Below are positions 8,150 through 34,887 of a stretch of DNA of 47,654 nucleotides, in pieces. The position numbers and the translations under genes are program-made. The stretch is from the IMG/VR virus record IMGVR_UViG_3300020156_000009, positions 1-47,654 of that record; one strand, written 5' to 3'. Each line of letters opens with the position of its first letter. Positions within the stretch are counted from its first letter, which is position 1. This stretch comes from a virus. A model generated the notes under the pieces. It was not told the origin of the DNA. It saw only the letters and a list, made by a program, of their open reading frames with translations, and did no database searches.

Positions 8150-8166
8150 CGCCTATCAGGTAAGGT
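8150..8166 (+). promoter_or_regulatory. Promoter P4 and operator of the RHH gene (leaderless)
   Basis: Operator-like CGCCTATCAGGTA (8150-8162) overlaps a -10 of the form TAAGGT (8161-8166), exactly 7 nt before the ATG at 8174. The -35 is poor. No ribosome binding site fits in the 7 nt, so a leaderless mRNA is expected. The operator overlapping the -10 fits autorepression. Confidence 0.6.
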
Positions 8167-8173
8167 GGTGGGC

Positions 8174-8380
8174 ATGACCGACCAGCCGAAGCGCAAGCCC
8201 GCCGGCGCTGCCGTGCCTGGCGCCGTCGACCGCCCCGTGAACTACCCCAAGACTCTCACGCTGATGGTGAGCCAGGGAACGTTCGACGCGATCGCCGAGG
8301 AGAAGTTGCGCACGGGTCGCTCGAAGGGTGAAATCGCTCGCGAGTGGCTGGAGTCCGGTCGCCCGAGCCAGGACGCATGA
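8174..8380 (+). CDS. Ribbon-helix-helix DNA-binding regulator
   Basis: 68 aa. Residues 1-25 form a basic, Pro-rich arm. Residues 27-62 match the CopG/Arc-type ribbon-helix-helix pattern: strand TLTLMVS, helix GTFDAIAEEKLRT, turn GRS, helix KGEIAREWLES. Such proteins dimerise, insert the paired strands in the major groove and bind short palindromes. It is the only recognisable RHH regulator seen and lies between two copies of the 13-bp operator (8102-8114 and 8150-8162), so it is the leading candidate to bind all sites of that family. The start is 8174, because the -10 lies 7 nt upstream; an in-frame ATG at 8117 would sit upstream of the promoter. Confidence 0.8.
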   Translation: MTDQPKRKPAGAAVPGAVDRPVNYPKTLTLMVSQGTFDAIAEEKLRTGRSKGEIAREWLESGRPSQDA

Positions 8381-8451
8381 CGCTTCTGCTCGTGCTCATC
8401 GCGTGCTTCGTCGTCGGTTTCGCCTGGGGCTACGTCCGCAACCTGCGCTAG
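8377..8451 (+). CDS. 24-codon membrane micro-ORF
   Basis: ATGA overlap with the stop of the RHH gene, then 24 codons and TAG at 8449. The peptide is almost entirely hydrophobic (LLLVLIACFVVGFAWGYV) with a basic end (RNLR), a plausible single transmembrane helix. Its stop codon interlocks with the stop of the convergent gene at 8448. Coupling to the regulator and clean hydrophobicity support expression, but no homology can be claimed at this length. Confidence 0.45.
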   Translation: MTLLLVLIACFVVGFAWGYVRNLR

Positions 8452-8702
8452 ATGCGTCGCCAGTTGTAGCTGATCGCGCCGATTTCGCGGTGCAGGATGC
8501 AGAGGACCGCCGAGCCGCCCACCCAGGCGGCGAGCTGGGACTGGTGCGAGTCGCAGGTGTAGATCGTGTCCCCGCACGAGAGCATCAGGAGCCAGCCCGC
8601 GGGGTCACCGCACTGATCGCCCGTCTGAAGCTTGTACTCGCACGACGGCGGCGTGAGGGCGGCCAGTAGTTGGTCGACCGCATCCGTGCTCGGCTTCTCC
8701 AT
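8448..8702 (-). CDS. Cys/His-containing small protein
   Basis: 84 aa, starting MEKPSTDAVD at 8702 in a TGATG junction with the upstream stop. It has Cys/His pairs in order (SCEYKL, DQCGDP, LSCGDT, YTCDSHQ, LCILH) that could bind one zinc ion. No catalytic motif is seen. It is the last gene of the P3 operon and ends against the convergent micro-ORF. A treble-clef or ribbon role is inferred from the residue pattern only. Confidence 0.7.
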   Translation of the reverse strand: MEKPSTDAVDQLLAALTPPSCEYKLQTGDQCGDPAGWLLMLSCGDTIYTCDSHQSQLAAWVGGSAVLCILHREIGAISYNWRRI

Positions 8703-8932
8703 CACGTCCACCTCTCGCCGCGTGCGCGCTGGAGACGCTCGCCGTCGGCCCGCTTCCACGCCTCCAGGGTATCGGCCAGGTCTTGGCGCTGGGCGCGAAG
8801 CACGCTCTTGCGCACCGCCTCGTAACCCCGGCCCAGCGCCAGCAGCGCGTCGTTGACATCGAAGCCGATCGCGAGAAGCCCGTCGAGCTCTTCGACCACC
8901 GTCTCGCGCGAGATGCGCGTCTGCATGGTCAT
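8702..8932 (-). CDS. Putative helix-turn-helix protein
   Basis: 76 aa from the ATG at 8932 (MTMQTRISRE), ATGA-coupled to the gene upstream. Residues about 10-45 (VVEELDGLLAIGFDVNDALL, then LGRGYEAVRKSV) resemble the short helix-turn-helix segments common in actinophage small proteins, where a hydrophobic helix, a Gly-containing turn and a basic recognition helix follow each other. The tail is a charged helix. DNA binding is an inference; an adaptor role is also possible. Confidence 0.6.
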   Translation of the reverse strand: MTMQTRISRETVVEELDGLLAIGFDVNDALLALGRGYEAVRKSVLRAQRQDLADTLEAWKRADGERLQRARGERWT

Positions 8933-9123
8933 GACTCGCGCCAGTAATCGGTATTGCCGAGCGGGTGCATTCCACGGGCCGCCCACTCCCGCATCTCGCG
9001 CTCACCCGCGACTAGATCGTCGCGCTCGTTGTCGATGTCGGGGAAGGCGGGCACACGCTGCCAGATCGCGAGCGCCGCCCAGGCCGCGCCGACGCCGGCG
9101 AGAAAGCCGAGTGCGAACTTCAT
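8929..9123 (-). CDS. Small membrane-anchored protein
   Basis: 64 aa, starting MKFALGFLAG at 9123, overlapping the upstream stop (ATGA). Residues 3-21 form a hydrophobic segment that could be a signal anchor. The rest is charged and soluble (ERDDLVAGEREMREWAARGM). Function unknown; one of three consecutive small membrane proteins in this operon. Confidence 0.7.
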   Translation of the reverse strand: MKFALGFLAGVGAAWAALAIWQRVPAFPDIDNERDDLVAGEREMREWAARGMHPLGNTDYWRES

Positions 9124-9533
9124 CGGTCCTCGCATCCGCAGGTCGGCGTGTGCAGATCGCCGTGCTTGCCGTCCGGCCCGAGCGGTCGCTGTCGATCGAT
9201 CTCGGCGATGATCCGGCCGATGCGGGCAACGCCTTCGATGGGGACGGCGTTCATCGAGAGCATGGCCGACTGCGCCACGCAAAGCGTCTCGCGGAGCATC
9301 TTCAGGGTGTCGCGAGGGTCGCGCAGGTAGAGCGCGCCGAACGGGTGCAGCGGCGCCCAGCCGAGCATCCCGAGAGCGGCGACGCGGCGCTCGGCCTCAC
9401 GCAGGTACGCATCGCGCCCCGCGGGATCGAGTGCATCCCACTCCGGCGTGCCGCTCTCGCGATGGTCGATGCGGTTCTCGAAGAGCGCCAGTTGCTCGAC
9501 AGCCCTCTGAAACTCGCTCCGAATCTCGGTCAT
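9120..9533 (-). CDS. Hypothetical helical protein
   Basis: 137 aa, starting MTEIRSEFQR at 9533, with overlapping start and stop junctions. It is mostly helical, with a Cys-containing C-terminus (HTPTCGCEDR). The central block (WDALDPAGRDAYLREAERRV) resembles the small helical tryptophan-containing segments seen in many phage proteins of unknown function. No catalytic motif. Confidence 0.75.
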   Translation of the reverse strand: MTEIRSEFQRAVEQLALFENRIDHRESGTPEWDALDPAGRDAYLREAERRVAALGMLGWAPLHPFGALYLRDPRDTLKMLRETLCVAQSAMLSMNAVPIEGVARIGRIIAEIDRQRPLGPDGKHGDLHTPTCGCEDR

Positions 9534-9775
9534 GACCCGCTCCTCTCGGCGGCGCTAGGGTGGCGGCTGGCGGACTGCTCGATGAGGCGCGCCTCATAGA
9601 AGCCACCGATTGCGCCGACGATCGTCATCAGCGCCACGAAGGCGAGCACGAGAGCGAGGCCGCCGTAGCCGAGCGCCCAGAAGGGCATGACGGGCGCAAG
9701 CAGTACGGCGGCGCACCCGAGCATGAAGAGGGCGGAGAGGCGCGCCTCGCGGGCGCGGCGGATGGTGGAGCGCAT
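9530..9775 (-). CDS. Two-helix membrane protein
   Basis: 81 aa. A basic N-terminus (RSTIRRAREAR) is followed by two hydrophobic segments at about 13-31 and 34-58, then a soluble Ser/Arg tail. The positive-inside rule puts both ends in the cytoplasm. It is encoded in the early operon and not with the lysis genes, so a holin role is unlikely. Possibly involved in early remodelling of the host membrane; function unknown. Confidence 0.7.
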   Translation of the reverse strand: MRSTIRRAREARLSALFMLGCAAVLLAPVMPFWALGYGGLALVLAFVALMTIVGAIGGFYEARLIEQSASRHPSAAERSGS

Positions 9776-10122
9776 CAGTCGTCACCCTTCAGTTCGATGG
9801 CCAGCGCGGCATCCGTCGGCGCGTCCTGGTCGTACAGGGTGGCGCGCGGCGGCGTGGGCATGACGTAGTGGGGAGGAACAGGCGCGAGCGCCTTCCGGTA
9901 GGGGTTGCGCAGTTCGCTGATGATGGCGCGAGCGTCGGGAGCACGTCGAGCGACGGCCCTCGCGGTGTCGGTCATGCCTCGATCCCATGCCGCCGCGCGC
10001 TCCTTCTGGAGGTCGGTCGATGCGGAGTAGAAGCCGATCGTTGCGCCGACCATGATCGCGATCGCCGCGACGATGATCAGGCAGGCCAGGAGCGCCCAGC
10101 CTTCGAGCATGAAGCCGTTCAC
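9775..10122 (-). CDS. Single-pass membrane protein
   Basis: 115 aa from a GTG at 10122 overlapping the upstream TGA (GTGA). Residues about 7-31 (WALLACLIIVAAIAIMVGAT) form a transmembrane helix. An Ala/Arg-rich soluble region and a Pro-rich segment (APVPPHYVMPTPP) follow. Longer in-frame extensions lack a ribosome binding site. Function unknown. Confidence 0.7.
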   Translation of the reverse strand: MNGFMLEGWALLACLIIVAAIAIMVGATIGFYSASTDLQKERAAAWDRGMTDTARAVARRAPDARAIISELRNPYRKALAPVPPHYVMPTPPRATLYDQDAPTDAALAIELKGDD

Positions 10123-10421
10123 AGGGCGACCTCGCACATCTCGTCGTAGGCGATCCCGAGGCGGTCGCACACTTCATCGGAGATCGACCACCAGACCAGC
10201 GGCGTGATGTCGGGCATCGCCTGCCAGTTCTCGACGAGGCGCTGGTTCTCCATCGCCCCCTGAATCGCGAGGTCGATCTCGGTCAAGGTGAACGGCTCGC
10301 CCGTCTCAGGGTTGACGACCGCGCGCTCGCGCAGGCAGTCGTAGGTCTTCTCGGTCTCGTCGCGCCAGAACAGGTACGCGATGGCTTCCTGTTCACAGGT
10401 GGCGGGGGTCTTGCTGGCCAT
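10119..10421 (-). CDS. First gene of the P3 operon; hypothetical
   Basis: 100 aa, starting MASKTPATCE at 10421, with AGAAGGAGC upstream. A helical, acidic protein with several Trp residues (PLVWWSISDEV). No domain recognised. It is transcribed from promoter P3, the exact copy of P2, so it and the gene at 7783 should be expressed at the same time. Confidence 0.8.
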   Translation of the reverse strand: MASKTPATCEQEAIAYLFWRDETEKTYDCLRERAVVNPETGEPFTLTEIDLAIQGAMENQRLVENWQAMPDITPLVWWSISDEVCDRLGIAYDEMCEVAL

Positions 10422-10426
10422 GAGGT

Positions 10427-10492
10427 TGCTCCTTCTGGAGTGGCGGATGCTGACGTGACCGACTATACCCCACCTATTAGGTGACGTGCAAC
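10427..10492 (-). repeat. 66-bp duplicated promoter-leader cassette (copy B)
   Basis: Exact copy of 8058-8123. A perfect 66-bp match between two regulatory regions whose coding flanks differ points to a recent duplication or gene conversion. Confidence 0.95.
10462..10491 (-). promoter_or_regulatory. Promoter P3 with perfect 13-bp palindromic operator
   Basis: TTGCAC (10491-10486), an 18-bp spacer with CACCTAATAGGTG (10483-10471), TATAGT (10467-10462), all identical to P2. It drives the operon 10421 to 8448, which holds the small membrane and helix-turn-helix proteins. Confidence 0.8.
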
Positions 10493-10507
10493 ACCTGGAT
10501 ACGAGAA

Positions 10508-10545
10508 GAGGTCGCCCCCGACTATTGCACGTCGAGAGCGACCTC
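10508..10545 (-). terminator. Hairpin after the helicase operon
   Basis: An 8-bp stem (GAGGTCGC 10508-10515 with GCGACCTC 10538-10545) with inner CGAC/GTCG pairing. On the minus strand it is followed by TTCTCGT. It lies about 60 bp past the stop of the RecD-like helicase and just before promoter P3, so it may end the upstream transcript. Confidence 0.5.
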
Positions 10546-10607
10546 TATGGAGCCGCATCCGCCAAGAAGGGTTCCGCTGATCAGTATGACAGGGAGACCC
10601 CGACAAC

Positions 10608-11963
10608 CTAGACGTCATGCACCGAGCGCACGATGTCGAGGCGATGGCGGGCGCGCGTCACCGCGGTATAGAGCCACTGGCGGCCCTGCTCCTCGGCGGC
10701 CAGCCTGCCGTCGCGGCGAGCGGTCATCGAGATGAGGTCGCTCGACTCGTCGATCAGCAGCACGCTGCCCCACTCCGACCCCTGCGACTTGTGCACGGTG
10801 ATGCCGAATCCCCATGCCCACGCCGGGTCGCTCGATCCCCAGGAGCGATCCAGGTACGCCTGCTCGGCTTTGTGCCCGGCCAGCGTGGCGATCGGCGACG
10901 ACACCTCGTGCTCGGCCCCGTCGTCATCCGCGACGACCAGCCGGAGCCACTCCTCGCTGACGGCATCCGCGCCGAGCACGGTCACCTGCTCGCCGTTCAT
11001 CCACTGGCGAACCTCAGGGTCGGGCGACTTCGTGTTCTTGATGCAGATCAGCCGGTCGCCGGGCGCGGGCATCATCGGGTCGCGGCGGCCGAGACGGCGA
11101 CGCACCTCGGCGTTCACCCGCTCGCGGGTCGCGTTGCGCCAGCAGAGCACCTGGTCGTACTCCTCCAGCGAGAGAAGGCGCTTCGGCTTCGTCAGCGGCG
11201 CCGACGGGAACGACGACTTCCTGATCTCGGTCGCGAGCGCCAGCACGGGCGAGCCGCCCGCCTGGCGGTGCACCTTCGTCAGCAGGTGGTGCGGATGCCC
11301 CATCGCCTGAAGCGAGCGCTGCGCCTTCACGGGCGGTAGCTGCGCAGGGTCGCCGACGAACACGAGACGCGAGCCGGTGCGCAGGAGGTCGGCGGCCACC
11401 TGCTCCGAGACCATCGACGCCTCATCGATCAGCAGCACCTGCACCGCGGGCCAGCCCGACTCCTCGTAGTGAGCGATCGCGCCGGCGGCATTGAACGCGA
11501 GTTCGTACCGCTTCGATGTGCGCAGAGCCTCGGCCCGCTCGGCGAACTTCTTCGGCAGCTTCTTGGCGAGCTCGGCCCAGTCGTCGTCGGTCGGCGTCTC
11601 CGGCGTCGCGATGTCGATCGCCACGAGCGCCGACAGCGCGCGCGGCTCGCGGTGCTCCACCTCCTCGAAGAAAGGTTCCCACTGCTCGCGCCACTTGGAG
11701 CGCTCCCGCTTTGACGGCGTGTAGAGGTAGGAGTGGATCGTCGCGGCGCCGTGCAGACCTTTCGCGCGCAGGACGCGCGCCGCCTTCCCGGTCGGGGCGA
11801 GCACCTGCACGCTGACGCCCTGACGCTCCATCGCGCGGATCGCCTCGGTGGCGACCACGCTGGTTTTCCCCGTGCCCGCGTAGCCGTGCAGGCGGGTGAC
11901 GGCCCGGTCGGTCGAGGCGATGTCGACGATCGCGTCGAGCTGCGCCTCGGTTGGCCGGATCAT
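10608..11963 (-). CDS. SF1 DNA helicase, RecD/Dda-like
   Basis: 451 aa superfamily 1 helicase that should unwind DNA 5' to 3' using ATP. Walker A is GYAGTGKTS (27-35). Walker B is LLIDEAS (177-183), followed by GDPAQLPPV (204-212) as motif III and VHRQ (231-234) as motif IV-like. TVHKSQGSEW and YTAVTRAR near the C-terminus are motifs V and VI. The protein is about the length of T4 Dda and lacks the N-terminal domain of bacterial RecD2. It is coupled to the small genes upstream of it and is probably part of the replication set with the primase-helicase. Confidence 0.93.
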   Translation of the reverse strand: MIRPTEAQLDAIVDIASTDRAVTRLHGYAGTGKTSVVATEAIRAMERQGVSVQVLAPTGKAARVLRAKGLHGAATIHSYLYTPSKRERSKWREQWEPFFEEVEHREPRALSALVAIDIATPETPTDDDWAELAKKLPKKFAERAEALRTSKRYELAFNAAGAIAHYEESGWPAVQVLLIDEASMVSEQVAADLLRTGSRLVFVGDPAQLPPVKAQRSLQAMGHPHHLLTKVHRQAGGSPVLALATEIRKSSFPSAPLTKPKRLLSLEEYDQVLCWRNATRERVNAEVRRRLGRRDPMMPAPGDRLICIKNTKSPDPEVRQWMNGEQVTVLGADAVSEEWLRLVVADDDGAEHEVSSPIATLAGHKAEQAYLDRSWGSSDPAWAWGFGITVHKSQGSEWGSVLLIDESSDLISMTARRDGRLAAEEQGRQWLYTAVTRARHRLDIVRSVHDV

Positions 11964-12235
11964 TCGCTGTCTTCCTCTGGTTCGACGGGGACGCCGAACA
12001 GCGCCTTCTGGGCGCGGGCCTCCAGTTCCTGGGTGCGCGAGATGACGGCATCTGGTACGCCGTCGAGAGCGGGGTCGATCGCCGCGAGAGCACGGGAGGC
12101 GATGCTCGCCTGCTCCAGCGCGCGCTCCAGCTTCGTCACGACGCTACGATGATCGGCGAGCGCCTGCGACAGCACGACATTGGCGTCATGCGCCACGTTG
12201 TGGATCGCGTTCCGTGCGTTCATGGTGTCCATCAC
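11960..12235 (-). CDS. Hypothetical helical protein
   Basis: 91 aa, starting MMDTMNARNA at 12235 and ATGA-coupled to the helicase gene. Almost entirely helical with possible coiled-coil (HRSVVTKLERALEQASIASRAL), ending in an acidic tail. The upstream junction repeats, almost base for base, the junction at about 12515. Function unknown. Confidence 0.75.
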   Translation of the reverse strand: MMDTMNARNAIHNVAHDANVVLSQALADHRSVVTKLERALEQASIASRALAAIDPALDGVPDAVISRTQELEARAQKALFGVPVEPEEDSE

Positions 12236-12519
12236 TGGGCCTCCCTGTAGTCGGCGAGCGCGGCGCCGTAGCCCTCGCCGAGCGCGGCGAAGGCATCCAT
12301 GAACTCCTCAGCGGCACGCACGGCCCAGGCGGCGGTCGTACCTATCGCCGAGCCGAGCGATCGCATGCCCGCGCGGAACTCCTCACGCCGCCGCTCGGCC
12401 TCCTCACGCTGGAGCGTGTCGGCGGGATACCCCAGCCGCTCCAGTGCCTCGCCGACAAGCTGATCGATGAGCGCCTGCACGCGGCGGTCAGCCTCGCGGA
12501 ACTCCTTGCCGACGTCCAT
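12232..12519 (-). CDS. Hypothetical helical protein
   Basis: 95 aa, starting MDVGKEFREA at 12519 in a TGATG junction. It is a charged amphipathic helix over the first 50 residues, then an Ala-rich helix. Ends ADYREAQ, close to the end of its upstream neighbour (ADCKEAQ); the DNA around both stop/start junctions is also shared. Longer in-frame starts would overlap the upstream gene and are rejected. Confidence 0.7.
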   Translation of the reverse strand: MDVGKEFREADRRVQALIDQLVGEALERLGYPADTLQREEAERRREEFRAGMRSLGSAIGTTAAWAVRAAEEFMDAFAALGEGYGAALADYREAQ

Positions 12520-12884
12520 CACTGGGCCTCCTTGCAGTCGGCGGGCGATGTGCACGCCGCGAGTGGAACGTAGCCCCTGCCGCCGTCGGCCTCGGTCCAG
12601 TTGCCGACGTAGAACAGCGCGCATGGCCAGACGTGGCCGAAGGTGCCGGTGACGCGAGCCTCTTCGGGCGTGGGCAGTCTGGGGGCGGTGATGTGTGCGT
12701 ACCCCTGATGCGGGGCGGGCGTCGGTCGCGGCGGGCGGTCCAGCGACTCGGTGATGGCGCAGAGCGCTGAGGCGACCGACATGTGCGCCCAGAACTCGGC
12801 GCGAGCCATGTCGCCGTCATTGTACGCGGTCGTGGCGTTGCGCTGGGCGTTCCGCGAGCGCACGAGGTGGCCAGGCTCAGGCAT
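12519..12884 (-). CDS. Hypothetical protein
   Basis: 121 aa, starting MPEPGHLVRS at 12884, overlapping the upstream gene by 8 nt. An N-terminal helix (NATTAYNDGDMARAEFWAHM) precedes a Pro/Thr-rich region and a beta-rich part with W and Y residues (WPCALFYVGNW). Two Cys near the C-terminus. No family recognised. Confidence 0.7.
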   Translation of the reverse strand: MPEPGHLVRSRNAQRNATTAYNDGDMARAEFWAHMSVASALCAITESLDRPPRPTPAPHQGYAHITAPRLPTPEEARVTGTFGHVWPCALFYVGNWTEADGGRGYVPLAACTSPADCKEAQ

Positions 12885-13341
12885 CGTCTTCTCCCTGGTC
12901 TGCGTTCACGGCGGCGGCCAGGTTGGCGATGCGCTCCCGGTAGCGCACCTCGTTGCGGGCGCGGCATTCGGCATGGACGCGCGCGAGGGTGCCGTAGCGG
13001 GTCGACCCGTCGACCTCGATCACCTGGGGCTTGCCTTCGCTGTCGCGTGAGCGCGGATCGACCAGGGCGGGGAAACTGCTCCCGCCGACGTCGAACGGCA
13101 CCCAGCGCAGGCGACGCAGGCGCTTCGCCTCCTCCAGCATCTGGAGCGCCCAGGCGCGGAGTTCCCGCTCGTTGCAGGCGACGGTCGTCGAGGTGCGATG
13201 ATTCAGGGGGATGCGAATCTCGATCCCTGGGGAGACACGTGTGTCACTAGGGGCGAACGTGATCGGGCGCACCTGGGTGCGCATCTTCTCGCGGATTTCT
13301 TCGAGCAGGTCATCGTCACTGCTGCTGGCGGATGCATTCAT
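12877..13341 (-). CDS. Hypothetical protein, first gene of the helicase operon
   Basis: 154 aa, starting MNASASSSDD at 13341. A -10 of the form TATGAT (13355-13350) lies 8 nt from the ATG, so the message is probably leaderless. An acidic N-terminus is followed by a beta-rich region and a C-terminal helix with several Arg (ARVHAECRARNEVRYRERI). No domain recognised. Divergent from the coiled-coil gene at 13405. Confidence 0.75.
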   Translation of the reverse strand: MNASASSSDDDLLEEIREKMRTQVRPITFAPSDTRVSPGIEIRIPLNHRTSTTVACNERELRAWALQMLEEAKRLRRLRWVPFDVGGSSFPALVDPRSRDSEGKPQVIEVDGSTRYGTLARVHAECRARNEVRYRERIANLAAAVNADQGEDDA

Positions 13342-13344
13342 AAT

Positions 13345-13366
13345 CCCTAATCATAGGTGATAGACT
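13345..13366. promoter_or_regulatory. Divergent promoter pair with variant operator
   Basis: A leftward -10 TATGAT (13355-13350) and a rightward -10 TAGACT (13361-13366) sit back to back over CCCTAATCATAGGTG (13345-13359). That sequence has the CCTA/TAGGTG arms of the 13-bp operator with a longer centre. It may be a weak or changed operator serving both genes. Confidence 0.5.
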
Positions 13367-17056: not shown

Positions 17057-17300
17057 GCGACAGATCTTACATGAGTGGACGAGTTGACTGAAGGGGACGG
17101 CTTGACGTTGTCAAATGACAGGGTGGTGACATTTTGCCGAAACCGCTGAAACCCTACTCTTTACTAGTAAGTGACATCTTCTTCTAGTGACATCTAGGGT
17201 AAGTCTCACTGGAGAAAGGATAGTGTCAAGGCGTTCCTTGACACGCTGAAACTATGCATTCTAGAGCCAACTCCGGTGACACGGGTGTCAGTGTCACACG
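17026..17300. promoter_or_regulatory. TGTCA/TGACA-rich region between the two arms (possible origin or switch)
   Basis: Non-coding from 17057, AT-richer than the rest of the genome. It contains a perfect 13-bp palindrome ATGTCAGTGACAT just inside the left gene, two AGTGACATCT repeats 19 bp apart, a 9-bp inverted repeat GTGTCAAGG-CGTT-CCTTGACAC, TTGTCAAATGACAG, a TTACTAGTAA palindrome and GTGACACGGGTGTCAGTGTCAC. In all I count more than ten TGTCA or TGACA half-sites. This looks like a binding array for a replication or control protein. Confidence 0.6.
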
Positions 17301-17323
17301 TCACCTATCAGGTGGTGTAGGGT
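17294..17323 (+). promoter_or_regulatory. Promoter P5 with 13-bp operator (leaderless)
   Basis: Weak -35 TCACAC (17294-17299), operator CACCTATCAGGTG (17302-17314), -10 TAGGGT (17318-17323), GTG start 6 nt later at 17330. A second operator copy, CACCTATCAGTTC (17335-17347), lies inside the first codons, 33 bp from the first, about three helical turns. Confidence 0.7.
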
Positions 17324-17329
17324 GGAGCG

Positions 17330-17953: not shown

Positions 17954-18358
17954 ATGAGCAGATCACTGACCGAGAAGCGTCAATGCTCCAGCACCTCCAA
18001 GCGCACGGGTCAGCAGTGCGGGCAGTACGTCGCCCCTGGCTTCACGGTCTGCAAGTGGCACGGCGCGAAGGCTCCTCAGGTGCAGAAGACGGCGCGGCAG
18101 CGTCTCGCCGAGGAGGTCATGCCCGCGATCGCACGACTGGCGACCGAGCGCGACAACGAGGAGGCGACGCCCTCTGAGCGCATCCGCGCCTCGACCGCGA
18201 TTCTGGACCGCTCCGGCTACGGCCCCAGCGTGAATGTCCAGCTCGACGATGCGCGGCAGTCGCTGGTGGAGAAGCTTCGCGCGATCCGCTCCGCCGTCCC
18301 CGATGCCGCCGGCGAGCTCGAAGTGCTGGATGCCGAGATCGTCGATGACGACGATTGA
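17954..18358 (+). CDS. terS: Terminase small subunit (zinc-binding type)
   Basis: 134 aa. Residues 11-36 have the Cys/His pattern C11, C22, C33, H36 in CSSTSKRTG...QCGQ...FTVCKWHG. This is the zinc-binding, Lys/Arg-rich motif typical of small terminase subunits in many actinophages. A helix for DNA binding and oligomer contacts follows, with an acidic tail (EIVDDDD). It would recognise packaging sites and present DNA to the large subunit. The start is the ATG at 17954 with CAGGGAGC upstream, not the in-frame ATG at 17936, which lacks a good site. It is separated from terL by six small genes and about 2.1 kb, which is unusual. Confidence 0.75.
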   Translation: MSRSLTEKRQCSSTSKRTGQQCGQYVAPGFTVCKWHGAKAPQVQKTARQRLAEEVMPAIARLATERDNEEATPSERIRASTAILDRSGYGPSVNVQLDDARQSLVEKLRAIRSAVPDAAGELEVLDAEIVDDDD

Positions 18359-18383
18359 CGTCACCTAATAGCTAGCGTAGAGT
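18355..18383 (+). promoter_or_regulatory. Promoter P6 with 13-bp operator
   Basis: TTGACG (18355-18360) overlapping the terS stop codon, a 17-bp spacer with CACCTAATAGCTA (18362-18374), TAGAGT (18378-18383). The leader starts near GTCTGCATCCGCC (18390-18402) and has GAAGGAG before the ATG at 18422, the same layout as P1-P3 and P9. Confidence 0.8.
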
Positions 18384-18421
18384 CGAAGAGTCTGCATCCG
18401 CCGCTCACGAAGGAGCACCCC

Positions 18422-18706
18422 ATGACTGACCGACCGCACCCCGGTGCGCTGAAGGTGCCAGCGAGATATGTCGTGCACCATAACGTGCGCGGCAACGGGC
18501 GCTGGGAAGTGCACCCGAAGGATTCTCCCTACTGCGAGTTGAGGCATCCTGGGTGGAATCCCCTCGTCTCTGGTGGCGGCTGCCTGGGTCTCTCGATTCC
18601 TCGTGGTCGCTGGTCCGACGCTGTGACGATCGCGCACCGGCGCTCATCCGAGGCGCGTCTCGCGTTCCGTGATCAGCTTCAGGCACGAGGGAGGGATTTC
18701 CAGTGA
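18422..18706 (+). CDS. Hypothetical protein
   Basis: 94 aa, starting MTDRPHPGAL, with GAAGGAG upstream. Beta-rich with aromatic residues (ARYVVHHNVRGNGRWEV), two Cys, and a C-terminal helix. The stop overlaps the next start as GTGA. First gene of a six-gene block of unknown function between the terminase subunits. Confidence 0.75.
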   Translation: MTDRPHPGALKVPARYVVHHNVRGNGRWEVHPKDSPYCELRHPGWNPLVSGGGCLGLSIPRGRWSDAVTIAHRRSSEARLAFRDQLQARGRDFQ

Positions 18707-20244: not shown

Positions 20245-20480
20245 CCGCCGACTCGATCCCGCCCAGCATCCGTGCTGAGCTCGACGTGACGCCGGCGTGG
20301 TGGGATGAGCAGTTCCGCGCGCTCGTGCGGAAGCAGATACCGCGCGACGCGGCCAGTCACGCCGGGCACGACGTCGACCGCGACGAGTACATGTTGCGAT
20401 CGTCCAACGGCGAGATGATCTACTACGCCACACGCTCATGGTGCGCCACCTGCGGCGTCGAGATCACCGACGTCACCTGA
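20241..20480 (+). CDS. Small protein with a CxxC pair
   Basis: 79 aa, starting MTADSIPPSI. An N-terminal helical part (WWDEQFRALVRKQI) is followed by a beta-rich end with CATCG. The single CxxC would need other ligands (His residues in SHAGHD) to bind zinc. The stop codon lies inside the operator of terL. Unknown function. Confidence 0.7.
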   Translation: MTADSIPPSIRAELDVTPAWWDEQFRALVRKQIPRDAASHAGHDVDRDEYMLRSSNGEMIYYATRSWCATCGVEITDVT

Positions 20481-20486
20481 TAGCCT
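20474..20486 (+). promoter_or_regulatory. Promoter P7 and operator upstream of terL (leaderless)
   Basis: Operator CACCTGATAGCCT (20474-20486) has TAGCCT (20481-20486) as its end, and TAGCCT is a -10 placed exactly 7 nt before the ATG at 20494. No ribosome binding site is present. The operator overlaps the -10, so binding should block terL transcription directly. Confidence 0.65.
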
Positions 20487-20493
20487 GGGCGGC

Positions 20494-22152
20494 ATGATGG
20501 ACCCCGCCGACGCTGAGCTCATCGAGCTGATCCGCACGACGCCCGATGAGCTGCTCGACCGCGTGGTCGCGTCGCTGTCGGATGCCGAGGTGGCGCTGCT
20601 GGAACAGCACTGGGCGTCGATGGGCCGCGAGCAGAAGGCGATCCCCGCATCGCCCGCGGAGCAGGCGCAGGAACTCTCATCCGAGTACCGCATCGTGCCA
20701 CATCTCGCCTACCTGTCGGAGCGCCTGGCCGCCGCGGTGAACGACGTCGAGCGCGGCATCGAGCGGAAGCTTCTCGTGTCGATGCCGCCGCGCCACGGGA
20801 AGACCGAGATGACGTCGGTCTATCTGCCGGTGTGGCTCCTGCGCCGCAACCCGCAGACGAAGATCGGCATCATCTCGCACTCGCCTACCCTGGCGACGAT
20901 GTGGGGTCGTCGCGTGCGCCGCATGGTCGAGCGCTACGGCGACAGCATCGGGCTGTCGATCGCGCCGGATGCGGGGGCGGTTGGCGAGTGGGAGACCCCC
21001 GAGGGCGGCAGCGTGATGAGCCGCTCCATCGGCCAGGCTCTCGCCGGCGTCGGCTTTAACGTGCTGATCATCGACGACCCTACGCGCGACTTCGCGGCGG
21101 CCCACTCGAAGGATCAGCGGCAGAGCGTCTGGTCGTGGTGGACGGCGAACGCGATCACCCGACTGGAGCCGCCCTCCCTCGTGATCGTCATCCAGACGCG
21201 CTGGCACGAGGACGATCTGACGGGCCGCCTCCTCTCCACCGAGCACGAGGGCGACCCCACCGAGTGGGAGCAGATCATCATCCCGGCGATCGCCAGTCAC
21301 GACCCGAAGAAGGGCGAGACGGACGTGCTGGGCCGTGAACCCGGCGAGCCGCTGCTGAGTCCGCTCGTGCCGAACGAGACGCCGGAGCAGGCGCTCACCC
21401 GGTTCGACAAGCTACGCCGCTCGGTCGGCTCCTACGCCTGGGCCGCGCTCTACCAGCAGTCGCCGTCACCGGCCAAGGGCGCGATCTTCTCCACCGAGTG
21501 GTGGCGCTTCTGGTCGACCGACCCGGCGCACGTCGCCGGCGACGGGAAGACGATCCTGCTCGACCGCGACCGGCTGCGCGATGGCCGCCTCATCGACTCC
21601 TGGGATGCGACGTTCAAGGGCACCGACTCCAGCGACTATGTGGTCGGGCAGCGCTGGGCGAGATGCGCCGCCGACTTCTTCCTGCTGGAGCAGTCGCGTG
21701 CGCGCCGGTCGTTCACCGAGACGCTGGAGGAGCAGCGCGCATTCTTCGGTCGCGGCATCGGCGCCGAGCTGACCAGGCAGCATCTGGTGGAGGACAAAGC
21801 GAACGGCCCCGCCATCATGGACGTGCTGCGCCGCGAGGTGCCCGGCCTGAAGCCGGTCGAGCCGCGAGGGACGAAAGAGGCACGCGCCCGCGCCATCACG
21901 CCGCCGATCGAGTCGGGCAACGTCTTCCTGCCCGACCCTCGGATGCCCGGCTTCGAATGGGTGCGCGAACTGATGGACGAGGCGCGCACCTTCCCGAACG
22001 GCGAGCATGACGACCAGGTGGATGCAATGAGCCAGGCGCTCGATCACCTCCTCGAAGCGTCGCCCGTCGTCGTGCACATGCCGAACGCCGTCGCTGCCGC
22101 GCAGGCGCGTCGCGGCCCCGCCTCCTTCCGCGCTGCTCTCGGCGGGCGCTGA
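20494..22152 (+). CDS. terL: Terminase large subunit
   Basis: 552 aa packaging motor. The ATPase domain has Walker A PPRHGKT (98-104) and Walker B NVLIIDDP (189-196). The RNase H-like nuclease domain begins near residue 365 with DSWDATFKGTDSSD (D368, D371) and ends with an acidic GEHDDQVDA near 506-514. It drives DNA into the procapsid and cuts concatemers. The start is the ATG at 20494; the message is leaderless, with the operator-bearing promoter P7 immediately ahead. Confidence 0.97.
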   Translation: MMDPADAELIELIRTTPDELLDRVVASLSDAEVALLEQHWASMGREQKAIPASPAEQAQELSSEYRIVPHLAYLSERLAAAVNDVERGIERKLLVSMPPRHGKTEMTSVYLPVWLLRRNPQTKIGIISHSPTLATMWGRRVRRMVERYGDSIGLSIAPDAGAVGEWETPEGGSVMSRSIGQALAGVGFNVLIIDDPTRDFAAAHSKDQRQSVWSWWTANAITRLEPPSLVIVIQTRWHEDDLTGRLLSTEHEGDPTEWEQIIIPAIASHDPKKGETDVLGREPGEPLLSPLVPNETPEQALTRFDKLRRSVGSYAWAALYQQSPSPAKGAIFSTEWWRFWSTDPAHVAGDGKTILLDRDRLRDGRLIDSWDATFKGTDSSDYVVGQRWARCAADFFLLEQSRARRSFTETLEEQRAFFGRGIGAELTRQHLVEDKANGPAIMDVLRREVPGLKPVEPRGTKEARARAITPPIESGNVFLPDPRMPGFEWVRELMDEARTFPNGEHDDQVDAMSQALDHLLEASPVVVHMPNAVAAAQARRGPASFRAALGGR

Positions 22153-22157: not shown

Positions 22158-22163
22158 TATCCT
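22158..22163 (+). promoter_or_regulatory. Leaderless promoter of the portal gene
   Basis: TATCCT exactly 7 nt before the ATG at 22171. Upstream GACCTGCTATCCT is only loosely like the 13-bp operator. No -35 is recognisable. Overlaps the region after the terL stop. Confidence 0.5.
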
Positions 22164-22170
22164 GCTCCTC

Positions 22171-25035: not shown

Positions 25036-25107
25036 GGGGGTATGCCCGAGCGGCTTAGGGGCCGGCCTGCAAAGCCGGTTAGGCGGGTTCAACTCCCGCT
25101 ACCCCCT
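25036..25107 (+). tRNA. tRNA-Cys (GCA)
   Basis: 72-nt cloverleaf: acceptor GGGGGTA pairs with TACCCCC, a 3-bp D stem (CCC/GGG), anticodon stem CCGGC/GCCGG with loop CTGCAAA giving anticodon GCA, and T arm GCGGG/CCCGC with loop TTCAACT. The discriminator base is T (U73), as required by cysteinyl-tRNA synthetase. The CCA end is not encoded. It lies between structural genes whose products are unusually rich in Cys. Confidence 0.95.
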
Positions 25108-25132
25108 CGTGATCCGAGAAGACCTGCGTGAC

Positions 25133-25285: not shown

Positions 25286-25315
25286 TTGCAGTTGCAACGA
25301 CTCTGCAACTACAAT
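25286..25315 (+). promoter_or_regulatory. Promoter of the protease gene with a distinct inverted-repeat operator
   Basis: TTGCAG (25286-25291), 18-bp spacer, TACAAT (25310-25315), then 7 nt to the ATG at 25323 (leaderless). The spacer is filled by an inverted repeat, GTTGCA (25291-25296) and TGCAAC (25304-25309), different from the 13-bp operator. The gene it controls starts with a helix-turn-helix domain, so autoregulation is possible. Confidence 0.75.
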
Positions 25316-25322
25316 CGCGACC

Positions 25323-29600: not shown

Positions 29601-29616
29601 ATCTAGGAGAACAATC

Positions 29617-30504: not shown

Positions 30505-30595
30505 CCCCGACCGAAGGGGGTTTCGGCGCGGGGCCGTTCGGTCATGGAACCTTCGGACACGGCCCCGCCTGAACCCTCATCGGTCAGGCGGGGCT
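30504..30595 (+). terminator. Tandem hairpins after the major tail gene
   Basis: First hairpin: 30504-30515 with 30521-30534 (GCCCCG...CGGGGC, one bulge). Second: GGCCCCGCCTGA (30561-30572) with TCAGGCGGGGCT (30584-30595), 12 bp including one G-U, loop of 11. There is no U-run. Together they probably end or reduce transcription past the abundant major tail gene. Confidence 0.65.
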
Positions 30596-30624
30596 GATCC
30601 ATATCCCAGACAGGAGAACCTGCG

Positions 30625-31101
30625 ATGCCGTTCAACGACAACCTTCCCGCGGAGAACACGAACCCGTGGTACGCGCCGATCACGACGGCGTGGGCCAACC
30701 TGAAGACGTTCGTAAACAGCCTGGAGACCGCGCTCGGGCTGAAGGCCGACACCTCCGACCTCGGCAGCGCCGCCTTCACGAGCGCCTCCTCCTTCGTGCC
30801 TGTCACTCGCACGGTGGCAGGCAAGACGCTGAGCGCCGACGTCACTCTCGCGAAGGCCGACGTGGGCCTCGGCGACGTCGACAACACGAGCGATGCGAAC
30901 AAGCCCGTCTCCAGCTTCCAGCAGACCGCTCTCGACGGGAAGGTCCCGACGTCGCGCACGGTGGCGGGCTACGCGCTCACGGCTGACGTGCCGCGGGCAG
31001 GGCTGAACACCCGCGGCGTCGGTGAGGCGCTGTTCATTCCCACGGGCGCGACCGTGCCCGGCGATACGCCGGTGTACACGATCATCATCGAAGCGGTCTG
31101 A
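30625..31101 (+). CDS. Tail-fibre-like protein
   Basis: 158 aa, starting MPFNDNLPAE, with CAGGAGAA upstream. It contains the typical fibre repeat VGLGDVDNTSDANKPVS and two further RTVAG segments (RTVAGKTLSADVTLAK, then RTVAGYALTADV). The N-terminus (NPWYAPITTAWANLKTFV) should connect to the tail or head. Trimeric beta-structure is expected. Its place between the major tail and connector genes, and not near the tail tip, is odd; a head or collar fibre is also possible. Confidence 0.75.
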   Translation: MPFNDNLPAENTNPWYAPITTAWANLKTFVNSLETALGLKADTSDLGSAAFTSASSFVPVTRTVAGKTLSADVTLAKADVGLGDVDNTSDANKPVSSFQQTALDGKVPTSRTVAGYALTADVPRAGLNTRGVGEALFIPTGATVPGDTPVYTIIIEAV

Positions 31102-31104
31102 CGC

Positions 31105-32694
31105 ATGGCCGCGCCCACGCTTGTCACCCTGGCCAACGTGCCCGGCCAGGGTGATTCGTTCATCATCGATCCCGTCGCACTGGGACTCGGCCTGCAGAAC
31201 GGCGACGTGCTGTTCTTCGCTGCCCGCTCGCAGGGTACGGCCGCCGCGGACATCACGCCGCCGACCGGCTTCCAGCGCGCGGGCACCACGGGCGCGTTCT
31301 CTCTCGGCGACCGGATGCTCGGCATCTGGTACAAGCCGATCCCCACCGCCTCCTCGGAACCCGCCACCTACACCGTCACCGGCATTTCTGGCGGCGGCAA
31401 CTCGCGGATCATGGTCGAGGTGGGCGTGCTCCGTGGTGCGGACCTCGCCCACCTGAACGACGCGGGCGTGAAGTACATCGGCGTGACGACAGAGCCGATC
31501 CCTGGCGTCACGGCTACCGATGTTCCGTACACGGTGCTCGCCTTCTGGGGCGCAGAGTTCACCGCGGGCGTCTCGGTCGTCCCGTCGGCCACACCGTCCG
31601 GCTACACCGTGGAGCGCATCGCGCAGACCGCGGGCGGCACGACCCCGGCTGTCGTCGACAACTCGGTCACCACTGGCTCGCGCACGGGCGTCGTACTCGT
31701 CTCGAAGAAGGTCGAGTCAGGCTCCACGACCGTCCCCGACCTGCTCACCACCTGGGCGGGCACTCCGACGGCTATCCGCGGCGCCTCCTGGGTCGTCCGC
31801 GGCCTCACCGCGGCCCCGCCCATCGGCGTTCCCGTGAAGCTCGGCGACGGCACCGCAGCGCGCCTCTCATACCTGGATGGCGCCGGCGTCCGTCAAGCTC
31901 CCCTCCGGGCATCCATCTGGCTCCCCGGCTTCGCCGACGTCGCCGCGCTGCTCGCGAAGCCCGGCGCGACGATGGCGCACCGTGGCGGCTCGCTGAACTG
32001 GCCCGAGATGAGCCAGGCCGCCTATGATCGCTCGGTGTTCCGCGGGTACGGCATGCTCGAGTTCTCGTGCGGCTGGACGAGCGACCTCGTGCCCTTCGGC
32101 ATGGGCGACCAGTACCTCGACCGGTACGCCGGCGTCACCGGCAGCGTCGATTCGACGACGATGACGTGGGCGACGCTCGCCTCGACCTACCAGAACGTGC
32201 TGCGACCCCTGGCACCAGGGGTCTACCAGCCGTTCTACCGGCTCGACGACTTCCTCGACAAGTACACGCCGCACCACGTCGTATCCGTCGATCCGAAGTA
32301 CGGATGGGCGAACATTCCGAAGATCACCGCGATGCTCGACATCTGCGATGCACACGGCGGCCCCGACAAGATCGTGATCAAGTTCGACTCGCCCGTCACC
32401 GGCTTCGACCTGGTGAACGCGGCGAAGGCGCGCGGCTACACGACGATGAACTACTGGGGCACCGAGGGCGACAAGCTCACCACCGCCTACGGCACCGACA
32501 AGTGGGATTTGATCGGCGTCCGCTACGACGCCGATCAGACGACGGTCTACGACGTCGCGACCGCCATCGGCAAGCCGGTGTGGGCGGCGGTCATCCCTGA
32601 CCAGGCGGGCTACGCCACGGCGGCGGCGCGCGGTGCCGACCTGATGATGTGCTCCAATGTGGCGGGCATCTCCCCCGTCGGCGCCGTCGGCTGA
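31105..32694 (+). CDS. Virion protein with inactive-looking GDPD-like domain
   Basis: 529 aa. The first about 230 residues are two beta-sandwich-like units. Residues about 285-529 look like a glycerophosphodiester phosphodiesterase barrel: AHRGG (His292), GMLEFS (319-321) and VPFGMGD up to LDR. In active enzymes these read HRG, E-x-D and VxxHD. Here Asp becomes Ser321 and the second catalytic His becomes Gly334, so it probably binds glycerophosphate polymers (such as wall teichoic acids) without cutting. It is likely a receptor-binding protein, paired with the fibre-like gene 3 bp upstream. Confidence 0.7.
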   Translation: MAAPTLVTLANVPGQGDSFIIDPVALGLGLQNGDVLFFAARSQGTAAADITPPTGFQRAGTTGAFSLGDRMLGIWYKPIPTASSEPATYTVTGISGGGNSRIMVEVGVLRGADLAHLNDAGVKYIGVTTEPIPGVTATDVPYTVLAFWGAEFTAGVSVVPSATPSGYTVERIAQTAGGTTPAVVDNSVTTGSRTGVVLVSKKVESGSTTVPDLLTTWAGTPTAIRGASWVVRGLTAAPPIGVPVKLGDGTAARLSYLDGAGVRQAPLRASIWLPGFADVAALLAKPGATMAHRGGSLNWPEMSQAAYDRSVFRGYGMLEFSCGWTSDLVPFGMGDQYLDRYAGVTGSVDSTTMTWATLASTYQNVLRPLAPGVYQPFYRLDDFLDKYTPHHVVSVDPKYGWANIPKITAMLDICDAHGGPDKIVIKFDSPVTGFDLVNAAKARGYTTMNYWGTEGDKLTTAYGTDKWDLIGVRYDADQTTVYDVATAIGKPVWAAVIPDQAGYATAAARGADLMMCSNVAGISPVGAVG

Positions 32695-32728
32695 GCGGTA
32701 TCCTCGGAGAGACGAAGGGACGACGCTC

Positions 32729-33409
32729 ATGGCAATCTGCATCTGGCCGATCGACATCACCGAGTGCTGCGAGCAGGTGAACATCGACCCCGCCGACCCT
32801 CGTATCGCCGCGACGATCGCGCAGGCGTCGGAGATGATGACGCGCTGGTCGGGCTACGCCTACGGCGGATGCCGCACGGTGCGCCCACTGTCGCCGTGCG
32901 GCGAGTGTCGCTCGGGATGCTGCTCGAACGGCGACTGCATCGTTCTCCATGACGCCGCCGCGGTGACCGCCGTCCGCATGAGCGGCACCATCGTGCCGCC
33001 GGCGGACTACTACTACGACGCCGCGCGTGGCACGCTCTGCCATGTCACGCCCAGTCGGTGGCCGACCGCCGACCCCCGGCAGGAGGACGTCGGGACGTTG
33101 GAGGTCGATACGCTGATCGGCTCGCCGCCCGACGCCTGGGCGCTGAGCGTGGCGACGGCGCTCGCCTGCGAGATGCTGCGCTCGTGCATGGGCGATGACC
33201 AGTGCCGTCTTCCGGCGAACGCCACACAGGTCACGAACGCCGGGATCACGATCACGCTCAGCGACGACGAGATTCTGCACGCGCTCCCCGAGGTATCGCG
33301 CTGGGCGCTCACCATCAACCCGGCCCGCGCCACGATGCCAGGCCGCATCTTCTCACCCGAGGCGAACCGCGCTCGCGTCGTCGGCTCGGCGCGTCGGTGG
33401 CGAGCATGA
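32729..33409 (+). CDS. Head-to-tail connector, Cys-rich
   Basis: 226 aa, starting MAICIWPIDI, with AAGGGA upstream. The pattern of an N-terminal helix bundle (IAATIAQASEMMTRWSG) and VRPLSPCG matches actinophage head-tail adaptor proteins. Thirteen Cys, including ECRSGCCSNGDC, form a knot-like cluster. It is ATGA-coupled to the next connector. The role is to join portal and tail. Longer in-frame starts lack a ribosome site. Confidence 0.75.
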   Translation: MAICIWPIDITECCEQVNIDPADPRIAATIAQASEMMTRWSGYAYGGCRTVRPLSPCGECRSGCCSNGDCIVLHDAAAVTAVRMSGTIVPPADYYYDAARGTLCHVTPSRWPTADPRQEDVGTLEVDTLIGSPPDAWALSVATALACEMLRSCMGDDQCRLPANATQVTNAGITITLSDDEILHALPEVSRWALTINPARATMPGRIFSPEANRARVVGSARRWRA

Positions 33410-33933
33410 CCGCGCTCGGGATCGATGAGACGCTCCAGACGCTGCTCTCGTGCGTCTGCGCGAAGCTGACCGAACTCGGCGTGCCCGCCTGCTCCTGCTT
33501 CGCCACCGTCGGCAACCCCACCGAGTCGATCGGCCTCTGCTGCTCGTGCCCTTCGGGGACCGGCGAACTCCGCGCCTCGCTCACCCGCGTCTATCGCGGC
33601 GATCGCACGAACGGCGCCGACTCCTCGGTCGCCGCGAAGCCCTGCGCTCCGGTGAACTGGGTGGCCCAGTACTCTGTCGTGCTCAGTCGCTGCTTCCCCA
33701 AGCTGTCGACCAGCGGCAACCTGCCGACCGGCGAGAAGACGCAGGAGGCCGCCGCGGGCCTGCACGCCGACGTCGCGGCGATGATGCGCGCCATCCATTG
33801 CTGCGTGCTCGATGAGCCGGCCTACGTCGAGCAGGTGGCGATCGAGCAAGACCCGCAGGGCGGATGCTCGTACATCACGCTGAGCGTGCGCGCGCCCATC
33901 ACCATCAAGGGCGCGAGCAACCTGCACCCGTGA
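33406..33933 (+). CDS. Second head-tail connector, Cys-rich
   Basis: 175 aa, starting MTALGIDETL at 33406. Twelve Cys, with SCVCAKL, ACSCF, LCCSCP and HCC clusters. The C-terminal part is beta-rich (CSYITLSVRAPITI), as in tail-completion proteins. The first ORF-wide extension upstream overlaps the previous gene and is rejected. Likely a neck or tail terminator protein from position. Confidence 0.65.
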   Translation: MTALGIDETLQTLLSCVCAKLTELGVPACSCFATVGNPTESIGLCCSCPSGTGELRASLTRVYRGDRTNGADSSVAAKPCAPVNWVAQYSVVLSRCFPKLSTSGNLPTGEKTQEAAAGLHADVAAMMRAIHCCVLDEPAYVEQVAIEQDPQGGCSYITLSVRAPITIKGASNLHP

Positions 33934-33959
33934 CCGACGTCGCCTGATAGGCGTATGAT
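33931..33959 (+). promoter_or_regulatory. Promoter P8 with 13-bp operator (leaderless)
   Basis: Weak -35 TGACCG (33931-33936), 17-bp spacer with CGCCTGATAGGCG (33941-33953), -10 TATGAT (33954-33959), then 7 nt to the ATG at 33967. It overlaps the previous stop codon. Confidence 0.7.
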
Positions 33960-33966
33960 CTTGCTC

Positions 33967-34380
33967 ATGACCGACGCCACGAAGACCCCCGCCAAGCCCG
34001 CCGACCGCCAGCCGAAGAAGCCCAGCGCCGCCCAGCTCAAGAAGCAGCAGGAGGCGATGGCCAACTTCCTGGCCGCGGGTCTCGACTTCACGCCGTTCAC
34101 GATCGACGCGGGCGACGGCATCGAGTGGAAGTTCAAAGCCGACACGATGCCTTCTGACCTCGCTCGCCTGCGGAACGCGCTCGTGGCGATGGAGGATGCC
34201 GGGAGCGACGTCGACCTGCTGGCCGCCGCCTTCGACGCCGCCATCGAGGCGATCCACTCGCTGATGCTCGACAAGAAGCAGGTGCCCGAGTTCCCCCAGC
34301 CGACCTACGGAACTCAGGCCGTGATCTGGTTCCTGATGAACCTCATCTCAGGCAAGAACGGTTTTCCTACCGAAGCCTGA
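33967..34380 (+). CDS. Tail assembly chaperone, short form
   Basis: 137 aa. A Lys/Pro-rich N-terminus (TKTPAKPADRQPKKP) is followed by a helical domain that ends at the TGA at 34378. It is the unshifted product of the usual two-product chaperone pair that folds the tape measure protein. The start is 7 nt after the -10 TATGAT, a leaderless message. Confidence 0.85.
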   Translation: MTDATKTPAKPADRQPKKPSAAQLKKQQEAMANFLAAGLDFTPFTIDAGDGIEWKFKADTMPSDLARLRNALVAMEDAGSDVDLLAAAFDAAIEAIHSLMLDKKQVPEFPQPTYGTQAVIWFLMNLISGKNGFPTEA

Positions 34381-34628
34381 TCTCCCTCTGGGAATCGATC
34401 GTTGCCAACTGGGGCAATCACGTATCGAAGTGGAATCAGGCGGGCCTGCGGTGGCGAGAATGGACCGCAGGCGAACTCCTCTGGGTGGTGCACCGCGAGA
34501 GCATCGCCTACCTGGCAGAGCACAATCCCCGCGGCATGCGGCGCTATCTCACCGACATGTGCGACTTCGCGACGCTCATCGAGTGGGATAAGCGCCAGAT
34601 GCGAGACGGTGCATCTCGGAGCAGTTAG
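33967..34628 (+). CDS. Tail assembly chaperone, frameshifted long form
   Basis: Likely -1 frameshift on GGTTTTC (34360-34366), joining 33967-34365 to 34365-34628, about 220 aa. The -1 frame is open through YRSLISLWESIVANWG, WREWTAGELLWVVHRESI and RRYLTDMCDFATLIEW to the TAG at 34626. That sequence is the typical helical C-terminal extension of tail chaperones and has no start of its own with a ribosome site. Programmed frameshifting here is known across siphoviruses; the exact slip codon is inferred. Confidence 0.75.
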
Positions 34629-34631
34629 GCG

Positions 34632-34637
34632 TATCCT
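34632..34637 (+). promoter_or_regulatory. Leaderless promoter of the gene at 34645
   Basis: TATCCT exactly 7 nt before the ATG at 34645, without a ribosome binding site. The upstream region includes the chaperone stop codon. Confidence 0.5.
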
Positions 34638-34644
34638 GGGGCGC

Positions 34645-34887
34645 ATGGGCTACCGGATCATGAATGCAGAAGGCCGCCACCTCACGACGGTGGCCGTGGT
34701 GAATCGCGTCGTCGAGCACTATGTGCCCGAGGGCGGCTACATCGAGGAGGAGGGCACCGGAAAGGTGACCTTCCGACACGGCCCCGCGGTGCCCGCGCCC
34801 GCCGAGCCGGAGACCGTCGTCGATGCGCCGAAGGCCGCCGAGGCTCCGAAGGCGAAGACAGCACCGCGCAAGCGCAAGAAGAAGTAG
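34645..34887 (+). CDS. Small protein with basic tail
   Basis: 80 aa, starting MGYRIMNAEG. A small beta-rich N-terminal part (HLTTVAVVNRVVEHYV) is followed by a Pro/Ala/Glu-rich linker and a basic end (TAPRKRKKK). Located between the chaperones and the gp10-like protein. Function unknown; the tail suggests nucleic acid or membrane contact. Confidence 0.7.
   Translation: MGYRIMNAEGRHLTTVAVVNRVVEHYVPEGGYIEEEGTGKVTFRHGPAVPAPAEPETVVDAPKAAEAPKAKTAPRKRKKK

Follow-up and report, generated by a model that had tools for sequence, protein, structure and literature searches.

Nine genes in the 47,654-nucleotide IMG/VR virus record IMGVR_UViG_3300020156_000009, the whole of which is here called the window, begin a few nucleotides downstream of a -10-like hexamer. 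This raises the question of whether their transcripts start with the start codon itself and, if so, how such promoters are controlled. The window is a circular contig with a G+C content of 68%; because a 127-bp direct repeat is common to both of its ends, the genome measures ~47.5 kb. The nearest relatives are Microbacterium phages SM23 and FuzzBuster, the latter forming its own genus within the Hodgkinviridae according to the International Committee on Taxonomy of Viruses (PMC12451628). The window is a lytic-looking Microbacterium phage near Fuzzbustervirus, and no integrase was seen among its annotated proteins. Its left part is mostly leftward and holds genes of DNA metabolism (exonuclease, RusA-like resolvase, methyltransferase, Dda-like helicase, primase/polymerase); the right part is a rightward virion block (TerL, portal, protease/portal-like, major head protein and tail proteins).

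A preliminary description of this DNA had listed nine -10 hexamers 6-8 nt before a start codon, and all nine are present in the sequence. The putative promoters, two of which (13341 and 17056) belong to starts of minus-strand genes, are as follows; "operator" denotes a palindrome described below.

8161-8173, plus strand: leaderless promoter of g14, a putative ribbon-helix-helix repressor gene; -10 TAAGGT, 7 nt to ATG 8174.
13342-13355, minus strand: leaderless promoter of g26; -10 TATGAT (13350-13355), 8 nt to ATG 13341.
17057-17069, minus strand: leaderless promoter of g30, for which no orthologue was found; -10 TAAGAT (17064-17069), 7 nt to ATG 17056.
17302-17329, plus strand: leaderless promoter of g31; operator 17302-17314, -10 TAGGGT (17318-17323), 6 nt to GTG 17330.
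20474-20493, plus strand: leaderless promoter of terL; a degenerate operator, CACCTGATAGCCT, overlaps -10 TAGCCT (20481-20486), 7 nt to ATG 20494.
22158-22170, plus strand: leaderless promoter of the portal protein gene; -10 TATCCT, 7 nt to ATG 22171.
25310-25322, plus strand: leaderless promoter of the capsid maturation protease orthologue; -10 TACAAT, 7 nt to ATG 25323.
33941-33966, plus strand: leaderless promoter of a 137-aa gene; operator CGCCTGATAGGCG, -10 TATGAT (33954-33959), 7 nt to ATG 33967 (an alternative in-frame ATG, 33955, lies within the -10).
34632-34644, plus strand: leaderless promoter of an 80-aa gene between the head-tail genes and the tape measure gene; -10 TATCCT, 7 nt to ATG 34645.

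The 7-nt spacing proposed earlier thus holds at seven sites, the exceptions being 13341 (8 nt) and 17330 (6 nt). Six of the nine lie in the late arm when 17330 is included; without it there are five, all from terL onward.

Gene starts were called independently with our own gene caller, which uses codon usage and Shine-Dalgarno motifs and is blind to promoters, and a gene was scored as leaderless if TANNNT lay 6-8 nt before its start codon. Eight of the 68 starts called in the window qualified where 0.24 were expected (binomial p = 1.7e-10); as the random-codon control, the hexamer lay at this distance from 0.36% of 2,785 other ATG/GTG codons. The caller's set was that of the preliminary description minus 33967, for which ATG 33955 was preferred, and contained no additional gene. 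The same test gave six leaderless genes in FuzzBuster (p = 2e-8) and five in SM23 (p = 6e-7). When the three genomes were pooled, TANNNT occurred 6 nt (12 cases), 7 nt (six) or 8 nt (one) before starts and at no other distance within 0-17 nt; a second cluster 36-40 nt before starts corresponds to leadered promoters. With GenBank-annotated starts the pattern was the same for FuzzBuster, Cinna, Kozie and Megan. The caller fails on Cinna (no leaderless gene among 48), so that the count of four leaderless genes there rests on the annotated starts.

Lack of a ribosome binding site, claimed for all nine genes, was borne out for eight; 8174 has AAGG within its -10 TAAGGT, and its relatives carry TATGGT instead, so that AAGG is not kept and no Shine-Dalgarno motif is present. 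The hexamer was found in one of 49 genes with a Shine-Dalgarno motif versus seven of ten uncoupled genes without one; the single exception to this exclusion is 8174, because its AAGG falls inside the -10. Such regular use at structural genes had been called striking; the share of leaderless genes, nine of ~68 (13%), is not high against the ~20% published for Actinobacteria, and is within a host-like range.

The layout is conserved where orthologues can be compared. The g14 promoter reads TAAGGT-7-ATG in the window and TATGGT-7-ATG in FuzzBuster and SM23; the terL promoters have TAGCCT-7, TAGCCT-6 and TAATCT-6 in the window, FuzzBuster and SM23, respectively; and g26 keeps the arrangement in two genomes (TATGAT-8-ATG in the window, TACGAT-6-ATG in the FuzzBuster orthologue). 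For all three genes the called ATG is backed by N-terminal conservation. The capsid maturation protease of the window has 30-34% identity, over aligned parts, to its relatives' orthologues. In the Hodgkinviridae circle, all 12 phages examined (the window, FuzzBuster, SM23, Cinna, Kozie, Merry, Megan, Quhwah, Tyrumbra, Jayden, Ariadne and MO526) have this gene leaderless on the TANNNT criterion; some of them are closely related and hence represent fewer than 12 independent lineages. Between distant pairs, the DNA upstream of this gene is at or near random identity apart from TANNNT. Of the two Gordonia relatives checked, Bakery and GTE6, neither keeps the protease promoter, their protease genes being preceded by purine-rich leaders; the one Mycobacterium phage checked has the protease joined to MuF directly after the portal gene, and Hendrix has it within a gene of 3.7 kb. 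The small gene directly before the tape measure gene is also leaderless in FuzzBuster, SM23, Kozie, Merry, Megan and Cinna. No window protein matched it; window genes 33967 and 34645, in the same region, are leaderless too, yet lack similarity to it. Enrichment, the sharp 6-8-nt spacing, Shine-Dalgarno exclusion, conserved N-termini and a layout conserved despite diverged upstream DNA together support the leaderless interpretation proposed earlier and, as judged from sequence, make leaderless promoters very probably the best reading of the sites.

Other elements were noted around the protease gene. An inverted repeat, GTTGCA-N7-TGCAAC (25291-25309, plus strand), stands just before its -10 in the window, and GGGTATCCTACCC lies over the protease -10 in FuzzBuster and SM23; both are possible further operators. 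A tRNA-Cys gene (GCA anticodon; 25036-25108, plus strand) lies upstream of the protease in the late block, and in Cinna a tRNA-Cys gene directly precedes the portal gene.

Several leaderless promoters also carry a palindromic operator, so that leaderless initiation is one layer of control only. The 13-bp palindrome CACCTRATAGGTG, missed in the preliminary description, occurs at 11 places in the window with ≤2 mismatches (15 strand-matches versus 0.6 expected). Eight of these places are intergenic, in a window of which intergenic DNA is 6.5%, and all eight are at promoters, three of them leaderless; the degenerate copy at terL is additional. At leaderless genes, the operator directly precedes the -10 in two cases (17302 and 33941) and overlaps it in two others (8150 and, in degenerate form, 20474 at terL). 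At leadered promoters the full palindrome fills the spacer, in the order TTGCACGT-CACCTAATAGGTG-GGG-TATAGT; the leader that comes next is conserved, with GTCAGCATCCGCCA and a Shine-Dalgarno motif of the GAAGGAG type, and the -35 and -10 hexamers around the palindrome are good (TTGACA/TTGCRC, 17-18-nt spacing). The sites other than those listed above are:

8150-8162, plus strand: g14 operator CGCCTATCAGGTA, overlapping the -10 of g14 itself, which would permit autoregulation.
8093-8122, minus strand: leadered promoter of g13; -35 TTGCAC (8117-8122), operator 8102-8114, -10 TATAGT (8093-8098); equivalents exist in FuzzBuster and SM23.
10462-10491, minus strand: leadered promoter of g21; the same module as at g13, operator 10471-10483.
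4920-4949, minus strand: leadered promoter of g8 (RusA-like resolvase); TTGACA, operator 4930-4942, TAGGCT.
46923-46952, minus strand: leadered promoter of g67; TTGCGC, operator 46932-46944, TAGACT.
18355-18422, plus strand: leadered promoter of ATG 18422; TTGACG, operator 18362-18374, TAGAGT, and a leader with GCATCCGCC and GAAGGAG.

The dyad symmetry of CACCTRATAGGTG, its place between -35 and -10 and its variable offset mark it as an operator; it overlaps the -10 by up to 6 nt or precedes it by up to 4 nt, a variability that suits a repressor site rather than a fixed promoter element. Among the genomes tested, it is confined to the three that have g14: intergenic sites number ten in FuzzBuster and seven in SM23, and none above chance was found in Cinna, Kozie, Merry or Megan. 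A search of IMG/VR returned 67 contigs, which we judge to be near the chance number for the pattern length, and none had more than one separate site (two contigs show one palindromic site read on both strands).

The leader of the leadered operator promoters, ~30 nt long (GTCAGCATCCGCCA...GAAGGAG), is common to 8051-8090 (minus), 10420-10460 (minus), 4866-4915 (minus) and 18384-18421 (plus), is present in FuzzBuster and SM23 too, has a weak partial match in Peppino and similar phages, and is possibly a translation or stability element. GCATCCGCC is over-represented (nine occurrences versus two expected) and is also found at the start of the g26 coding sequence. The g13 and g21 promoter-plus-leader modules are a duplication, 92 bp long with 90% identity (8043-8134 and 10412-10503). 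The 94-aa open reading frame at 18422-18706 (plus strand), with its operator promoter, leader and Shine-Dalgarno motif, was missed by the gene caller, and a family search with it gave no match.

The candidate for the protein that binds the palindrome is the product of g14:

8174-8380, plus strand: g14, encoding a putative CopG-like ribbon-helix-helix DNA-binding protein of 68 aa, the putative repressor of the operator.

This gene is transcribed divergently from g13 across a gap of 121 bp that contains two operators, one of which lies over the g14 -10; the operator at the g14 promoter is conserved. Database searches gave close relatives in FuzzBuster and SM23 only, with no further ones in IMG/VR or GTDB genomes. 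The FuzzBuster orthologue is gp72, annotated (42514-42738) from an ATG inside the -10, probably 12 nt too early; the SM23 orthologue, at 20629-20829, is absent from the annotation. The latter matched PF01402 (RHH_1) with an E value of 0.01 and 16.2 bits, below the curated cut-off of 20.5. A g14 profile aligned to gp47 of Microbacterium phage OscarSo, annotated as ribbon-helix-helix, with 95% probability in hhalign; the ATG of gp47 follows TACGAT by 7 nt, and the gene is, like g14, a lone rightward one amid leftward genes; a palindrome scan of OscarSo gave GC-rich coding repeats only. Sequence searches of the PDB with g14 were empty. As a lead only, the C-terminal half of g14 aligns without gaps to CopG, a score equalled by 0.2% of shuffles. 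We consider it fairly probable that g14 is a repressor acting at the palindrome.

Taken together, the nine sites would be sigma-70-type leaderless promoters. With the -10 (TANNNT) 6-8 nt upstream, transcription would start at or next to the A or G of the ATG or GTG, and an mRNA starting with its start codon would be read by the leaderless route common in Actinobacteria. The late-block leaderless genes follow the preceding gene after a gap of 13-37 nt, and promoters in these gaps of the rightward operon would let TerL, portal, capsid protease and two small head-tail-region genes be expressed independently of read-through. Read-through RNA may be poorly translated for these genes, each of which would then have its own supply; the alternative is coupling from the upstream stop codon. 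The g14 protein, made from its own leaderless promoter, probably binds CACCTRATAGGTG where the palindrome lies between -35 and -10 or covers the -10. Bound there, it would block polymerase not only at its own gene but also at early leftward operons and some late genes, repression rather than activation being the presumed effect.

Several results weigh against this explanation. A -35 element was not above background at the leaderless promoters, and some of them may therefore need an activator; a clear operator is missing at five of the nine. The leaderless layout is not kept at FuzzBuster g31, which has an AAGGAGG leader, and was not seen at the portal genes of relatives. Profile searches gave window g14 no family-model match; its AlphaFold single-sequence monomer model has helices at 34-46 and 51-61, forms no strand and is poor (predicted local distance difference test score, pLDDT, 66), and a Foldseek search with this weak model found nothing. 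With these points included, leaderless promoters, part of them under a g14 operator layer, are still the likely overall explanation.

The rival that survives best accepts the leaderless promoters and assigns the palindrome to an activator or a host regulator instead of a g14 repressor, with late promoters lacking a -35 dependent on a phage activator. The -35 result fits this, as does CTAACC, which marks leaderless promoters of Kozie, Cinna and Merry 5 nt before the -10, that of a small helix-turn-helix (HTH)/sigma-like gene included. However, the operator fills the spacer of promoters that have a good -35 and -10, where a bound protein would block polymerase, and its variable offset misfits an activator of fixed geometry; this rival is unlikely. 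We give still less weight to real promoters whose transcripts start a few nucleotides to either side of the start codon, with very short leaders or true starts further downstream. Sequence cannot fix a transcription start to the base, some genes are spaced at 6 nt and one at 8 nt, and 33967 has its in-frame ATG inside the -10; but 6-7 nt from -10 to start is the usual distance from a -10 to the transcription start, and the N-termini of g14, terL and g26 are conserved from the called ATG. That the hexamers reflect chance or composition, with translation by coupling or from longer transcripts, is most improbable and was rejected on the random-codon, spacing and annotated-start controls: the hexamer is short and the late sites do lie in short gaps behind genes able to couple translation, but the enrichment (p ~1e-10), the restriction to 6-8 nt and the conservation between orthologues despite diverged upstream DNA tell against it, and 13341, 17056, 17330 and 8174 have no co-directional gene just upstream.

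A broader proposal can be made tentatively. In this lytic phage family, the late operon may have leaderless promoters as fixed internal entry points, the capsid maturation protease being the strictest case, and structural genes without a Shine-Dalgarno motif may depend for translation on transcripts of their own alone. Early and late promoters of the Fuzzbuster-like branch might in turn be timed, via one palindrome, by a tiny ribbon-helix-helix repressor that is itself leaderless. Gene regulation in Microbacterium phages is almost unstudied. From the analysis, many transcript ends can be predicted to the single base, a candidate regulator and its putative binding site are named, and it can be tested how virion protein doses might be set within a phage operon; the omission of g14 in SM23 and the early start of FuzzBuster gp72 are probable annotation errors.

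A literature search found no work on leaderless genes in Microbacterium phages and no description of an operator regulon with CACCTRATAGGTG. Repeats have been surveyed in Microbacterium phage clusters EC, EF and EG, with no regulator or role assigned (PMC7302621). Like the window sites, they are conserved motifs upstream of starts in the short intergenic regions of lytic Microbacterium phages (PMC7302621); their sequences differ, the EC motif TAGaCTCTaGGTgTaAgC opening with a -10-like TAGACT followed by a leader, and the window palindrome is absent from the relatives tested. Merry has 12 annotated repeats (e.g., 3434-3466) that are similar to the published EC motif and look like promoters, in the order CTAACC...GATTAGACA block, TAGACT (-10-like), ATAGGTGTAAGC, and leader with a purine-rich Shine-Dalgarno motif. 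Mementomorivirus-type relatives have leaderless promoters with CTAACC 5 nt before a TAGGAT-like -10 (Kozie 4920, 19523 and 49382; Cinna 3842, 19234 and 49555; Merry 48837), and a small HTH or 'sigma factor' gene has such a promoter too; these constitute a parallel regulon with another site.

The genomes of cluster A mycobacteriophages, actinobacteriophages too, are likewise dotted with copies of a short repressor-type site, the stoperator (PMC9283540). Stoperators are asymmetric, belong to another kind of immunity repressor and also stop elongation (PMC9283540), whereas the window site is palindromic and lies in promoter spacers; a stoperator system was rejected on the palindromic form of the site and on the lack of an integrase among the annotated proteins. 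The CopG/Arc-type repressors of plasmids and phages would resemble g14 in being small, with a strand and two helices, a site at their own promoter and a palindromic operator over promoter elements. The putative g14 operators differ in being spread over early and late promoters of a phage with no integrase detected, and no solved relative matched g14.

For the promoters themselves, a close parallel is the TA-led leaderless genes of Actinobacteria. Zheng et al. (2011) used the TANNNT signal to call leaderless genes, which made up ~20% of genes in Actinobacteria (PMC3160421). In mycobacteria, a 5'-terminal ATG or GTG suffices for leaderless translation, leadered initiation requires a Shine-Dalgarno motif, and about one quarter of transcripts are leaderless (Shell et al. 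2015, PMC4633059). The phage genes share with these the TANNNT ~12 bp before the start codon, the absence of a Shine-Dalgarno motif and the high-GC actinobacterial setting (PMC3160421, PMC4633059); unlike them, they include virion structural genes within an operon, are conserved across a phage family and in some cases overlap a putative phage operator. What is new is not leaderless initiation, which is known, but its family-wide conservation at a virion gene, together with an operator regulon that has a probable ribbon-helix-helix repressor.

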